From Ureibacillus sinduriensis BLB-1 = JCM 15800 (GTDB lineage Bacteria > Bacillota > Bacilli > Bacillales_A > Planococcaceae), in assembly GCF_000772955.1 (NCBI RefSeq), contig NZ_JPVO01000053.1, positions 124,001 to 188,000 of the forward strand: DNA of 64,000 bases, read 5' to 3'. Positions 40,271 to 44,004 of the stretch are shown here, piece by piece. The notes below the pieces were generated by a model that saw only the letters and a program-made list of their open reading frames with translations, searched no databases and was not told the origin of the DNA. Position numbers and translations under genes: made by a program. Within the stretch, counting starts at the first letter, position 1; each line of letters opens with the position of its first letter.

Positions 40271-41506
40271 ATGAAAACACAAACTAAAAAACTATTAAAA
40301 TCATTAGAAAACAAAAATTCTATGAAAATGTTTTTACCACTTGATATTCAATTTTTTGCTGGGAACAAAACACTTTACGAGCTAAAACAAGCAATGGCTA
40401 CAATTGGTCAACAATTAGCTAAAACAGAAGAAGACTTAGCTACAAAGGCAATGGATCCATCTGCTTCACTTGATGATATTAAAGCAACTCAAACTGTGAA
40501 AGCTGATTTGCAAGCTCGTTTTGATGTAATCAAAGCTCAACATGATCAACTTGAAAAGGAACAAGCTGAAAAGTTTGCTCAAAAACAAAATACTATTGCA
40601 GGAATTGAAGATCCAAAACAAAAAGTTGTGTCTGCAAAAGCTGATTTAATTCGTTCTACAATGCGCGGTAAGGCAATTGATAGTGATGTTCGCGCGGCAT
40701 TAGGTGATAACTCAACAACTGGGGGAAGTAAATTCCTACCAAAAACAGTATCAAACGATATCATCATGGAACCTTTAGCGAAAAATCCATTACGTGGTCA
40801 CTCAGTTGTAACGAACATTACGAATTTAGAACTTCCTAAATTGAGTTACACACTAGATGACGATGATTTTATTGCAGATACTGAAACAGCAAAAGAACTA
40901 GAATTAACGGGCGATACAGTATCTTTCGGTCGTCATAAATTCAAAGTATATGCAGGTGTATCTGAAACAGTAATCAATGGATCTGATGCAAATTTAGTTG
41001 GCCATGTAGAGAATGCATTAAAATCAGGTGTTGCTGCCAAAGAAAAGAAGGTGGCATTCGCGACTACTCCAAAACCTGGAGAAGAACATATGTCATTCTA
41101 TTCAACTCAAAATGGTATCAAAGTGGTTACTGGTGCAGACAAATACAAAGCAATTAAAGCAGCTATTGCTGATCTACATGAAGATTACCGTGAAAATGCA
41201 AAAATCTTTATGACATTTGCGGATTACTCTGACATCATCGAGACACTTGCGAATGGAAGTGCAACTTTATATACAGCTCAACCAGAACAAGTATTAGGTA
41301 AACCTGTAGTATTTGCTGATGGTGCAGTAAAACCAATCGTTGGTGATTTTTCTTACTCTCAGTTCAACTATGACATTGGTGAACTATTCGAACGTGATAA
41401 AGATATCAAAACGGGTATCGAACAATTCGTTGTTACAGCTTGGTTTGACCACCAAATTAAGTTGAAATCTGCATTCCGTATCGCAGATGTTACTTCTACT
41501 CCCTAA
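40271..41506 (+). CDS. HK97-fold major capsid protein (zero-frame form)
   Basis: 411 residues. Residues 1-~120 are a helical scaffold (LYELKQAMATIGQQLAKTEEDLATKA), and the mature HK97-fold shell domain starts near KGKAIDSD/ALGDNSTTGGSKFLPKTVSNDI. The N-terminus has an LDIQFFAG motif shared in style with the tail protein. GGGAGG precedes ATG. It ends TSTP-stop in CCC-TAA. The +1 frame continues 18 codons to 41561 with the same peptide tag as the tail protein, so a longer minor form is predicted. Confidence 0.95.
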   Translation: MKTQTKKLLKSLENKNSMKMFLPLDIQFFAGNKTLYELKQAMATIGQQLAKTEEDLATKAMDPSASLDDIKATQTVKADLQARFDVIKAQHDQLEKEQAEKFAQKQNTIAGIEDPKQKVVSAKADLIRSTMRGKAIDSDVRAALGDNSTTGGSKFLPKTVSNDIIMEPLAKNPLRGHSVVTNITNLELPKLSYTLDDDDFIADTETAKELELTGDTVSFGRHKFKVYAGVSETVINGSDANLVGHVENALKSGVAAKEKKVAFATTPKPGEEHMSFYSTQNGIKVVTGADKYKAIKAAIADLHEDYRENAKIFMTFADYSDIIETLANGSATLYTAQPEQVLGKPVVFADGAVKPIVGDFSYSQFNYDIGELFERDKDIKTGIEQFVVTAWFDHQIKLKSAFRIADVTSTP

Positions 41507-41561
41507 TACAGCGGCATCTATAGGCGATGCCGTAATCGGTGAAAGTTTAATTGTTCAATAG
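41501..41561 (+). promoter_or_regulatory. predicted +1 frameshift site and capsid C-terminal extension
   Basis: CCC-TAA at 41501-41506: slipping from CCC to CCT bypasses the stop and reads NTAASIGDAVIGESLIVQ, ending at TAG 41559-41561. A 7-bp stem (41512-41518 with 41526-41532, loop TATAGGC) begins 5 bases after the stop. The arrangement recurs at 43944. Slow stop decoding after Pro-CCC is the known setting for +1 slips. Confidence 0.8.
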
Positions 41562-41578
41562 ATAATAAAGGAGGATAA

Positions 41579-41887
41579 ATGGCTATGGCTACAAAAGAAG
41601 AATTAAAAGTATTATTTGCTACTGGAAAAAAACCAACAGGTGATGATTTCTCTAAATTAATTGATGGTGTAGAAGGACCTGCTGGACCTCAAGGGGAAGT
41701 TGGTCCCCCAGGTCCACAAGGTGAGACGGGAGCAACAGGTGCAAAAGGCACGACTGGCGCTAAAGGTGATCCAGGTGTAGGAGTTAAGTCAATCGCTCTA
41801 ACTGTTGATGCAGAAGGTAAAGTAACAGGTGGAACAATGACGTTAACAGATAATTCTACAGCTCCAATTACAGTAACTACAGCTTAA
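41579..41887 (+). CDS. collagen-like phage head fibre protein
   Basis: 102 residues, AAAGGAGGATAA before ATG. N-terminal anchor [26 protein letters not shown], then G-x-y triplets [20 protein letters not shown] to about residue 66, then a beta-rich C-terminal knob. The layout fits a trimeric head fibre or decoration protein as in other Bacillus phages. Located directly after the capsid gene and its extension. Confidence 0.82.
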
Positions 41888-41913
41888 AAAGCTCTCTTTT
41901 TGGGGGCTTTTTG
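41886..41913 (+). terminator. terminator after the head-fibre gene
   Basis: AAAAAGCTCTC / GGGGGCTTTTT hairpin, partly G-U paired, then TTGC. It may lower expression of the downstream connector genes relative to capsid. Confidence 0.75.
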
Positions 41914-41944
41914 CTTTAAAATGAGCTGAAAAGAGTGATAAACA

Positions 41945-42262
41945 ATGACATTACTCGATGAATTAAAGGAATATCTGAGAGTAGATGGGGATGATGAAAC
42001 ACAGTCCCTTTCTACTTTTATAAATGCTGCTGAAGTAGTTTTGAAGAATTCAGGAGTAAAACTTCCACAGGATTATTATCAAATTGTGGATGGCAAAGAC
42101 ATTTATTCCGAACATCGGTTGGCAGTATTAATTTTGGCATCTCATTATTATGAAAATCGTCAAATTTCATCTCAAAATGCACAAAATGAGATACCTTTTA
42201 GCGTTCAAACAATGATTTTGCAATTGAAATGGGTGAATATCGATGAATCCAGCCCAATTTAA
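41945..42262 (+). CDS. head-tail connector protein (gp6/gp15-like)
   Basis: 105 residues, helical: LLDELKEYLRVDGDDETQSLSTFINAAEVVLKNSGV ... LAVLILASHYYENRQ. This is the standard first connector gene of HK97-like phages. Overlaps the next gene by 20 bases. Confidence 0.85.
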   Translation: MTLLDELKEYLRVDGDDETQSLSTFINAAEVVLKNSGVKLPQDYYQIVDGKDIYSEHRLAVLILASHYYENRQISSQNAQNEIPFSVQTMILQLKWVNIDESSPI

Positions 42263-42578
42263 TCGCCGTATTTCACTATTTAAACGAACAATAACTGTAG
42301 ATGAACTACTACAAGAAATTGAGACTTTTGAAGAAGTTAAGAAGCTATGGGCGATGATTAAAACCTTAAAAGGTGAAGAAGTTCAAAAAGCTGATTCTTC
42401 CACAATCAATACGTCTCGTTTTGTAGTTAGATACTCAAAATTTCTTCATGATCTATTCGAAGATGAAAAAACATCGTTAGAAATCCATTATCGTGGTGTG
42501 ATTTATGATATAAAAAGCGTGATAAACGACGATGAGGCCAATATAACCTACACAATCGTTGCCGAAGGGCGGATGTAA
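42243..42578 (+). CDS. phage head closure / head-tail adaptor protein
   Basis: 111 residues, beta-rich: MNPAQFNRRISLFKRTITVDELLQEIETFEEVKKLWAMIKTL and IHYRGVIYDIKSVINDDE, as in SPP1 gp16-like stoppers. Connector operon position supports this. Confidence 0.87.
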   Translation: MNPAQFNRRISLFKRTITVDELLQEIETFEEVKKLWAMIKTLKGEEVQKADSSTINTSRFVVRYSKFLHDLFEDEKTSLEIHYRGVIYDIKSVINDDEANITYTIVAEGRM

Positions 42579-42580
42579 CC

Positions 42581-42934
42581 ATGGCGAATGTAAATAACAT
42601 AGCTAATGAAATTGTTCGTTCCCTCAGACAATATACAGACGAAGTGAAAGTAAAAGTTAATGAAGCAGGGAAAGAAGTTTCTGAATATGGTGTGCGACGA
42701 CTTAAAGTGGAAAGTCCTAAAAAGACAGGTAAGTATGCTCAAGGTTGGCGATTAAAAAAAGTGGGGACCAAATGGGTTACTTACAACAAACTTTATCGAC
42801 TTACTCACTTGCTTGAAAAAGGCCATGCAAAGGTAAATGGTGGCCGTGTTGCTGCAAGGGTTCATATTGCCCCTGTTGAACACAAAATGATTGAAGAATA
42901 TACACAAAAAGTTGAGGAGGCCATTAGAGGATGA
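42581..42934 (+). CDS. HK97 gp10-like tail completion protein
   Basis: 117 residues: VNEAGKEVSEYGVRRLKVESPKKTGKYAQGWRLKKVG and RLTHLLEKGHAKVNGGRVAARVHIAPVE, the hallmark of the HK97 gp10 family. Connects head to tail. Overlaps the next gene by 4 bases. Confidence 0.92.
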   Translation: MANVNNIANEIVRSLRQYTDEVKVKVNEAGKEVSEYGVRRLKVESPKKTGKYAQGWRLKKVGTKWVTYNKLYRLTHLLEKGHAKVNGGRVAARVHIAPVEHKMIEEYTQKVEEAIRG

Positions 42935-43245
42935 CATTACCTGAATTAGCTCAAGCATTAAAAGGCTTAGGTTATCCAGTCGCCTATTCTCACTTTTTAA
43001 CTACTCAAGATCCACCATTTATTTGTTATTTAGTACTTGATTCGGCTACTTTCAATGCTGATAACAAGCCGATTCATGAAACAATAAGCGTAGATATTGA
43101 ACTTTATACAAAAACGAAGTCTTTAGCGATAGAAAAGCAAATAAAGGATTTACTAACAACAAACGAACTCCCTTGGTTTTTCGATGAAATTCACATCGAA
43201 GACGAGGGAGTTTTTAAATGTACTTTTTCAATTACATTAACTTAA
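42931..43245 (+). CDS. tail terminator-like protein (gp11/DUF3168 type)
   Basis: 104 residues: LPELAQALKGLGYPVAYSHFLTTQDPPFICYLVLDS ... ISVDIELYTKTKSLAIEKQIKDLL, as in minor tail/tail terminator proteins located just before the tail-tube gene. Confidence 0.82.
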   Translation: MTLPELAQALKGLGYPVAYSHFLTTQDPPFICYLVLDSATFNADNKPIHETISVDIELYTKTKSLAIEKQIKDLLTTNELPWFFDEIHIEDEGVFKCTFSITLT

Positions 43246-43262
43246 AAATGGAGCGTGAAAGC

Positions 43263-43949
43263 ATGTATAACGTATTAAATGACAACAAAGTTATTCAAAG
43301 TGTATCAAGTGACAAAGTAGTAATTCCTTTCCATTGGAAATCGATTATGAAATTAGATATTCAATACTTTGCTGAAAACAAAGTTGAATATGGTTTATCG
43401 AACGTTCACTATGCAACTTATACAACTGGTGCAGATGGAACAATTACATTTGATAAACCTATCCCGATTCCAGGTGCGGTAAGTATGACAGGAGATCCAG
43501 TAGGTGAAGCAACAAAATTCTTTGCTGATAACATGGTTTATTACGTTGCAAAAAGTAACCAAGGTTATGAAGCAACATTGAGTATTGCTACAATTCCACA
43601 GCAATTCGCTATCGATGCATTGGGTGAAGAATTAGACGAAGTAGATGGAGTAATTAACGAAGTTGCAGATGCACAAGGCAAACCGTTTGCACTTTTATTC
43701 CAATTCGAAGGCGATGTTAAAGCGACACGTCACATTATGTATAACTGTACAGCTAACCGTCCGAGTCTTAACGGAAATACAAAAACGGAAAGTACGGAGA
43801 TTACGCCAAACGAATTAACATTAACAGCTGCTCCAATCAAAATTGGTGATAAAACTCTAGTAAAAACAAAAACTACATCTGCTACAACTGCAGCTATCTA
43901 TGATTCATGGTTCGATACGGTTTACCAAAAGACAAATGCTACTCCCTAA
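43263..43949 (+). CDS. major tail (tube) protein (zero-frame form)
   Basis: 228 residues from ATG 43263, which follows TGGAGCG; the open frame extends to 43218 but without a ribosome site. It contains LDIQYFAENKVEYGL, then the tube fold GAVSMTGDPVGEATKFFADNMVYYV, and ends TNATP-stop in CCC-TAA. The +1 frame continues to 44004 with an 18-residue tag that nearly repeats the capsid tag, so two forms are expected, the longer being the minority. Confidence 0.92.
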   Translation: MYNVLNDNKVIQSVSSDKVVIPFHWKSIMKLDIQYFAENKVEYGLSNVHYATYTTGADGTITFDKPIPIPGAVSMTGDPVGEATKFFADNMVYYVAKSNQGYEATLSIATIPQQFAIDALGEELDEVDGVINEVADAQGKPFALLFQFEGDVKATRHIMYNCTANRPSLNGNTKTESTEITPNELTLTAAPIKIGDKTLVKTKTTSATTAAIYDSWFDTVYQKTNATP

Positions 43950-44004
43950 TGAAGCCGCATCTATAGGCGATGCGGTTTTAGGCACAAATTTCATTATTCA
44001 GTAA
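43944..44004 (+). promoter_or_regulatory. predicted +1 frameshift site and tail-protein C-terminal extension
   Basis: CCC-TAA at 43944-43949. The +1 frame reads NEAASIGDAVLGTNFIIQ and stops at TAA 44002-44004. Stem 43955-43961 with 43969-43975, same loop TATAGGC and same 5-base spacing as the capsid site. One stem pair is G-C in the capsid site and C-G here, through synonymous Ala codons on both arms. Confidence 0.8.

Follow-up and report, generated by a model that had tools for sequence, protein, structure and literature searches.

Putative frameshift-made tags on the head and tail proteins of a Ureibacillus sinduriensis phage module may recruit a single accessory protein

Why should two unrelated virion proteins of one phage carry near-copies of the same short peptide, each encoded beyond the stop codon in a shifted reading frame? 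The question is raised by a stretch of 64,000 nucleotides from Ureibacillus sinduriensis BLB-1 = JCM 15800 (GCF_000772955.1, contig NZ_JPVO01000053.1, positions 124,001 to 188,000 of the forward strand), the whole of which we call the window. In it lie the genes of a siphophage-type module: those for portal, Clp-type protease, and capsid, a collagen-like gene of 102 residues, small connector-like genes, the tail protein gene, and a long, tape-measure-like open reading frame (ORF). The connector and tape-measure labels rest on gene order and length. A sequence-only reading of this DNA had drawn attention to twin extensions of the capsid and tail proteins. We found a third component, the gene directly after the capsid gene, and we think it likely that ribosomal slippage equips both head and tail with tags to which a single accessory protein is recruited.

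The major capsid protein gene (0-frame product 40271–41506, on the plus strand like all window features given here; Pfam Phage_capsid PF05065, E 2.3e-13; phrog_10 major head protein, E 8.6e-58) and the major tail protein gene (43218–43949 as the listed ORF, with a likelier start at ATG 43263; phrog_88 major tail protein, E 7.8e-54 for 43263–43946; zero Pfam matches at E 0.01) both end in ACT-CCC-TAA. At the capsid end, the putative +1 shift site CCC-TAA occupies 41501–41506 (CCC 41501–41503, stop 41504–41506) and is the same site as in SPP1 gp17.1, as given in the accessible part of PMC6316719; a slip from CCC to CCU would open the 18-residue tag NTAASIGDAVIGESLIVQ (41505–41558, stop 41559–41561). 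At the tail end, the corresponding site occupies 43944–43949 (CCC 43944–43946, stop 43947–43949), and the +1 frame encodes NEAASIGDAVLGTNFIIQ, also of 18 residues (43948–44001, stop 44002–44004). The two extensions share 12 identical residues, as had been claimed. Ungapped identity between the two genes is 43/58 across the stop, tag, and tag stop, 21/60 directly upstream, and 20/60 directly after, and 5 of the 12 identical residues are encoded by different codons. Because identity drops outside the tag and some of the shared residues use different codons, a recent duplication of the whole flank is ruled out. So is a chance origin of the twin tags: a profile of 21 tags scored at most 6.3 bits on reversed DNA versus up to 44.7 bits on the real loci, which include some of the contigs from which the profile was built. 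The window capsid and tail proteins also have in common an N-terminal motif, LDIQ[FY]FA (40340–40360 and 43353–43373), which we rejected as a component of the system; among the tagged proteins, a loose version turns up in only 5 of 40 capsids and 1 of 32 tails.

The third component (41579–41887, 102 amino acids, phrog_34916) has AGGAGG, a Shine-Dalgarno (SD)-like sequence, before its ATG. Its product consists of a KEELKxLFxTGKKPTGxDFxxLIDGV head, a collagen-like repeat, and a C-terminal domain; the sole Pfam match is Collagen PF01391 (31.1 bits for a cut-off of 27.2, residues 30–66), and the repeat has the Gly-x-y pattern of collagen.

How regularly do tag and neighbouring gene go together? 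We compared 143 capsid ends: 80 from viral contigs, chosen as the best among 160 capsid relatives there (the window's own sequence, L002, is one of them), and 63 from one-per-species genomes; these homology-selected loci represent 116 distinct ends, which we sorted by profile hidden Markov models (HMMs). By their +1 extension, several classes can be told apart: ends with none, with 18 residues, with 20–23 residues (most of them ending in W plus one residue), with a complete FN3 domain of ~86–95 residues, and with other sequences of 37–53 residues, mostly Pro/Glu-rich. After 18-residue-tag capsids, the next gene starts M[A]xTKEELKxxFxTGxxPTxxDFxxLID (KxPT type), often followed by collagen-like repeats, as in the window. 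After 20–23-residue-tag capsids, it starts like MATTYNVYRDGxKI..GLTEKSYTDTGLTPNTEYTYQVSAxNxxGESELS, that is, FN3 without its first two strands. A class-matched partner lies directly after all 17 distinct short +1-tag capsids (KxPT type in 6/6, FN3 strands C–G in 11/11), and a separate partner immediately follows 0 of the 66 ends that the sorting left without a tag (Fisher 4.9e-18; 8e-5 for the match of classes). Two mis-sorted groups were corrected by reading: L039 and L091, sorted as short-tagged, encode an unsplit FN3 through their −1 frame and were removed from the FN3-hairpin (20–23-residue) group, and L028 and L053, sorted as untagged with a partner, have an unsplit FN3 and were counted as untagged without a separate partner. 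The 66 untagged ends include L107 (unsplit Big_2, −1 frame) and five Enterococcus ends (L075, L078, L079, L100, and L103) with −1 tags that the HMMs did not score, while L108, with a Big_2 half tag, was sorted as "other 30–60" and belongs to neither count.

In phages with a short-tagged capsid, the non-homologous tail protein usually carries a tag of the same class and similar length. This was the case for 13 of the 16 short-tagged ends with the tail in view (5/5 of the 18-residue class and 8/11 of the FN3 class). Among 55 untagged ends with the tail in view, the HMMs scored one tail tag, an 11.3-bit partial match in L134 that we took as chance; four of the 55 (L075, L078, L079, and L103) have −1 tail tags that were seen by reading. 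Tags within a genome are more alike than tags between genomes (18-type, p 6e-4 with 10 representatives; FN3-type, p 5e-5 with 23), as measured on all distinct pairs after thinning by rule from 16 to 10 and from 26 to 23.

Scanning from the partner gave the converse result. KxPT-type partners, found without use of the tag, had a matching tag upstream in 34 of 39 loci: 31 at a CCC-stop in the +1 frame, one cut by a contig end, one via the −1 frame, and one in frame. At L248, one gene lies between tag and partner. FN3-half partners had a tag in 23 of 25 loci (22 +1 tags and one in-frame hairpin, L288, identified by reading), and the scan matches L289 and L290 are ordinary contiguous FN3.

The FN3 class suggests what the pairing is for. 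In L048, the Pfam fn3 model matches the tag at positions 2–23 of 84 (15.1 bits, below the curated cut-off of 25), the partner at 32–83 (29.5 bits), and the two joined at 2–83 (46.9 bits). In L108, where the partner follows the tail gene, Big_2 matches the tail tag at 4–32 and the partner at 35–67 of 79, and the joined sequence scores 44.1 bits. Tag and partner are thus complementary halves of one domain by Pfam in L048 and L108, and by reading at other loci. An AlphaFold prediction for L048 (tag, linker, and partner, with each stop replaced by glycine, from 10 read-through and 9 partner-only rows) had a mean predicted local distance difference test score (pLDDT) of 87.3 and a predicted template modeling score (pTM) of 0.76, with tag strands at 4–11 and 15–21 (block means 92 and 96), a linker at 26–34 below 50, and five partner strands (blocks 89–97). 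Foldseek returned 405 PDB matches to this model at E 0.001 or better, and the top 50 are mostly FN3 domains. As judged from alignment and model, the 20–23-residue tag is FN3 strands A–B, and the partner is strands C–G. Because the anatomy of tag and partner is complementary, we read the short extension of the FN3 class as a donor for a separate acceptor protein.

Some FN3 acceptors end in an A–B donor hairpin of their own, for example the C-terminal PGGLSSTGNTDTTVDLGWN (L172 and L285, which are one contig; L284, 4699; L227, 4995–5483), and such acceptors could join one to the next, head to tail, as a chain. In Latilactobacillus phage TMW 1.1381 P1, an acceptor with its own donor hairpin follows a baseplate gene.

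The sequence-only reading had instead offered a host surface ligand as a direct target of the tag. On that account, the tag's own target would be a ligand on the host surface or in the environment, and the decoration protein encoded downstream would be independent of the tag and only accompany it. Tail Ig-like (immunoglobulin-like) and FN3 extensions have been proposed to bind cell-wall carbohydrates, in the accessible part of PMC8718954, and the downstream gene would then be a hitchhiker. We nevertheless regard this as unlikely: the match of tag and partner classes (6/6 and 11/11), the recovery of tags by the partner-first scans (34/39 and 23/25), and the joining of FN3-class tag and partner into one domain all point to the product of the nearby gene as the ligand. 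The broader suggestion of a common binding module at low copy on head and tail survives in its first part, since the tag looks like such a module on both; the low copy number would depend on the shift being infrequent.

Is the tag peptide itself maintained, or the RNA that encodes it? The hairpins predicted at the two window sites begin a few bases after the stop, with 8 bp at the capsid site (41511–41533, −13.1 kcal/mol) and 12 bp at the tail site (43950–43980, −16.7 kcal/mol). The stem is present as described earlier, with one pair G-C in the capsid gene and C-G in the tail gene through GCG/GCC and GCC/GCG Ala codons. We compared the stability of the 40 nucleotides from the stop with that of 300 synonymous shuffles. 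The window tail hairpin was more stable than the shuffles (z −2.8, p 0.010), and the capsid hairpin was borderline (z −1.8, p 0.053). Across 42 distinct tags of the 18-residue class, all z values were negative (mean −2.2; 20 capsid tags, mean −2.22, p < 0.05 in 12/20; 22 tail tags, mean −2.16, p < 0.05 in 14/22), and the hairpin is rebuilt with different bases in two registers across the class. The hairpin is built with rare codons: CCC at tag codon 3 in 29/36 versus a background of 7.5%, and GGG at the first IG Gly in 32/42 versus 10.5%. The signal is weak in the FN3-hairpin class (mean z −0.62 for 34 capsid and −0.34 for 32 tail tags, p < 0.05 in 3/34 and 4/32), which excludes the stem as a feature of every tag. 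The codon-3 Pro of FN3-hairpin tags is CCC, a second one following that of the shift site, in 62/66 versus 6.5% background, although these tags have little hairpin signal.

The ratio of nonsynonymous to synonymous change (pN/pS) in the +1 frame is 0.44–0.54 for both tag classes and both genes (in the 18-residue class, 0.54 over 20 capsid tags and 0.44 over 22 tail tags) and above 1 in the other two frames. Part of the sets used for shuffles and pN/pS came from DNA-pattern searches, in which certain bases of site and tag are fixed but the tested third bases are not. Capsid and tail were distinguished by ORF length in these sets, and some truncated capsids count as tails. The earlier claim that both peptide and RNA fold are selected therefore holds in the 18-residue class, by pN/pS and by synonymous shuffles. 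Free divergence after the stop had been named as evidence to the contrary. The post-stop sequences of tagged relatives do not diverge freely (+1 pN/pS ~0.5), although many relatives are untagged, one of them (L003) with an 87%-identical capsid.

The capsids of L003 and L006–L015, 73–87% identical to that of the window, end without CCC-stop (mostly CCT-TAA) and have neither tag nor partner; a YKVINRF-type gene follows the capsid gene in most of them. After the untagged capsids of L020, L089, L094, L101, L138, L140, and L144 there is a small gene of the type LTPGSKITADGKQAxAIADHxDPxxATxxxIATKQNxILAALRxxGII, possibly another type of head fibre.

A further account takes the tags for remnants of once complete FN3 domains, now in decay, or for sequence whose only role is to carry the RNA hairpin or control termination. 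It would accommodate the unsplit FN3 relatives, the selected hairpin of the 18-residue class, the untagged close relatives (L003), and the tail of L124, whose CCC-TAA leads into 12 unrelated and perhaps decayed residues. It is made very unlikely, however, by the purifying selection that acts on the +1 frame of both genes and both classes, by the conservation of FN3-hairpin tags despite little hairpin signal, and by the occurrence on unrelated proteins of twin tags that match in class and are similar in length.

Could ribosomes hop or read on from the tag into the partner, making one complete FN3-extended capsid protein with no split at all? The FN3-class partner starts 76–122 nucleotides after the capsid stop and makes one domain with the tag, and unsplit FN3 extensions are present in relatives. 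Between tag and partner, however, there are stops; SD-like sequences and start codons accompany the called partners; the frames vary, tag and partner sharing one in 10 of the 22 FN3-class loci for which a partner was called; what comes after the tail tags in the loci read is another gene, except in L108; and in L108, as in Enterococcus L075, L079, and L103, it is the tail gene that precedes the partner. We judged translational hopping unlikely, to the point of giving it almost no credence. A role of the tag in assembly, joining virion subunits to one another (head–head or head–tail) instead of serving as a socket for an accessory protein, might be suggested by its place on both head and tail proteins but is scarcely credible given that the partner gene adjoins all 17 distinct short-tag capsids, that tail proteins differ while the tag class stays, and that an assembly part would hardly be expected to be missing with the 87%-identical capsid of L003.

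Recruitment of an accessory protein by the tags would build on a recoding event that is itself known; the comparisons that follow are with the accessible parts of the cited papers. In SPP1, a +1 slip at CCC-UAA yields a C-terminally extended tail tube protein (gp17.1 and gp17.1*, ratio 3:1; PMC6316719; PMC8718954). Shifts of +1 at CCC also occur in Listeria phages PSA, A118, and A500, with a pseudoknot reported at the capsid site of PSA and not at its tail site (PMC5009743). The loci described here resemble SPP1 in the putative +1 shift at CCC-UAA, the C-terminal extension, and the FN3 nature of the extension, but the SPP1 extension is a complete 87-residue FN3 on the tail protein, whereas here 18–23 residues would be placed on both capsid and tail, and a separate gene encodes what the tag lacks of the domain in the FN3 class and a collagen-like partner in the window. 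PSA resembles the window more closely in that the capsid and tail genes (Cps and Tsh) of one phage both have a +1 shift at CCC; it is treated among frameshift-made Ig-like extensions, and in the accessible part of the paper neither a short common tag nor a separate complementary gene is described (PMC5009743). The window partner can also be likened, by description, to SPP1 gp12, a predicted collagen-like trimeric head decoration, but gp12 is placed at the hexamer centre and a frameshift tag is not described in what is accessible of the source (PMC7602432).

Like the SPP1 and PSA sites, the sites here have CCC directly 5′ of the stop and an open, conserved +1 extension, and sequence analysis favours an RNA structure near the site in the 18-residue class; a complete Ig-like domain is absent from the extension, which has 18 residues in the window and covers fn3 2–23 of 84 in FN3-class relatives. 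From the conservation of the tags and by analogy with the known CCC-UAA site of SPP1, +1 frameshifting would be expected at both window sites. Completion of one Ig-like fold by another protein has precedents. In pilin donor-strand complementation, one donor strand completes the incomplete Ig-like fold of another protein, and SpyTag/SpyCatcher is an engineered split in which a short strand completes an Ig-like fold and an isopeptide bond forms. Here, in contrast, the proposed donor is a two-strand hairpin that comes from a frameshift product and is displayed on virions, and a covalent bond is not implied. As the +1 shift was already known from SPP1 and PSA, what we propose as new is a short extension that acts as the donor for a separate acceptor protein; in the accessible parts of the open-access literature searched, neither a split FN3 pair on virions nor a common short head and tail tag is described.

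We propose that the ribosome waits at CCC-UAA on a rare Pro codon next to the stop and that a minority of ribosomes slip by +1, from CCC to CCU, helped in the 18-residue class by the hairpin a few bases downstream. Through the slip, some few copies of the major capsid protein and of the major tail protein would end in a short additional tag. This tag would be a docking peptide for the accessory protein encoded right after the capsid gene, in the window the collagen-like product of 41579–41887, so that head and tail tube alike would be decorated with it, at a copy number set by the shift rate. In FN3-class relatives, with strands A–B on the virion protein and C–G encoded as a separate gene, docking would amount to completion of the fold. 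The sequences themselves show the paired tags with their shift sites, the selection, the stem, the partner genes matched in class, and the split anatomy of FN3 and Big_2; from these we infer the frameshift, docking, the decoration of both head and tail, and how the 18-residue class would bind. For the class found in the window, docking is suggested by the co-occurrence of tag and partner, by analogy with the FN3 class.

Several results weigh against docking or limit how far it reaches. The system is absent from close relatives such as L003 and must therefore be dispensable. Three of the 11 FN3-class capsids (L029, L109, and L124) are without a recognisable tail tag, and 5 of the 39 KxPT loci (L259, L261, L262, L263, and L265) are without a scored tag, L262 having an in-frame tag-like end that the HMMs did not score. 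The window partner had zero matches in the phage record collection. The AlphaFold model of the split FN3 joins the halves covalently through read-through stops, and the prediction for an 18-residue tag with its partner (L236, 26 rows) was poor (pLDDT 57.3, pTM 0.21); a partner working only as a trimer would be one reason. Finally, many loci are near relatives or recur on the same contigs across scans, and the counts are not independent events.

Other coding routes lead to similar arrangements. In Enterococcus L075, L078, L079, and L103, the −1 frame gives [VI]APAVVGKVTPTADGATIELS-type capsid tags and similar tail tags, and the partner lies downstream, after the tail gene in the fully read L075, L079, and L103. 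In Enterococcus phage BC611, the −1 frames of the head and tail genes encode TAPKNLQASGVTEDSVTLTWE.. and EAPTELSASDISEDSVTLTWK, respectively, and the gene after the head gene, efb15 (annotated as major tail protein), appears from its sequence to be the acceptor half; the region covering head, tag, and partner start is matched by 72 phage records. Both +1 tags, one of them at AZS49213, are present in Bacillus phage vB_BpsS-140 together with an acceptor of 66 residues, AZS49214. Tag-like C-termini also occur in frame, directly before the partner gene, in L249 (4439), L262 (near 4501), and L288 (near 4501), that of L288 being of the FN3 type and that of L249 of the 18-type. Unsplit Big_2 (L107, 7155–7388) and FN3 (L039 and L091, after the capsid) extensions are reached via the −1 frame near A-rich stretches. 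Saphexavirus genes labelled "major tail protein" beside the head gene (L225, 5001–5438; L224, 6001–6438; PHROG 341) look like FN3 acceptor halves, and this label on Saphexavirus and PHROG 341 genes is probably a systematic misannotation.

We lean, with some reserve, toward the wider view that Firmicutes phages use naturally split Ig-like domains as a plug and socket. A donor hairpin, recoded (+1 or −1) or in frame, would be carried by a few head and tail subunits, and a free acceptor would snap onto it; the arrangement would recur with FN3, with Big_2, and with a collagen-bearing partner, and some acceptors could polymerise into chains on the virion. If true, this would supply a reason for frameshifting in both the head and the tail gene of one phage, namely that it sets the copy number of one accessory protein mounted on both, and it would predict a ready-made, genetically encoded docking system.

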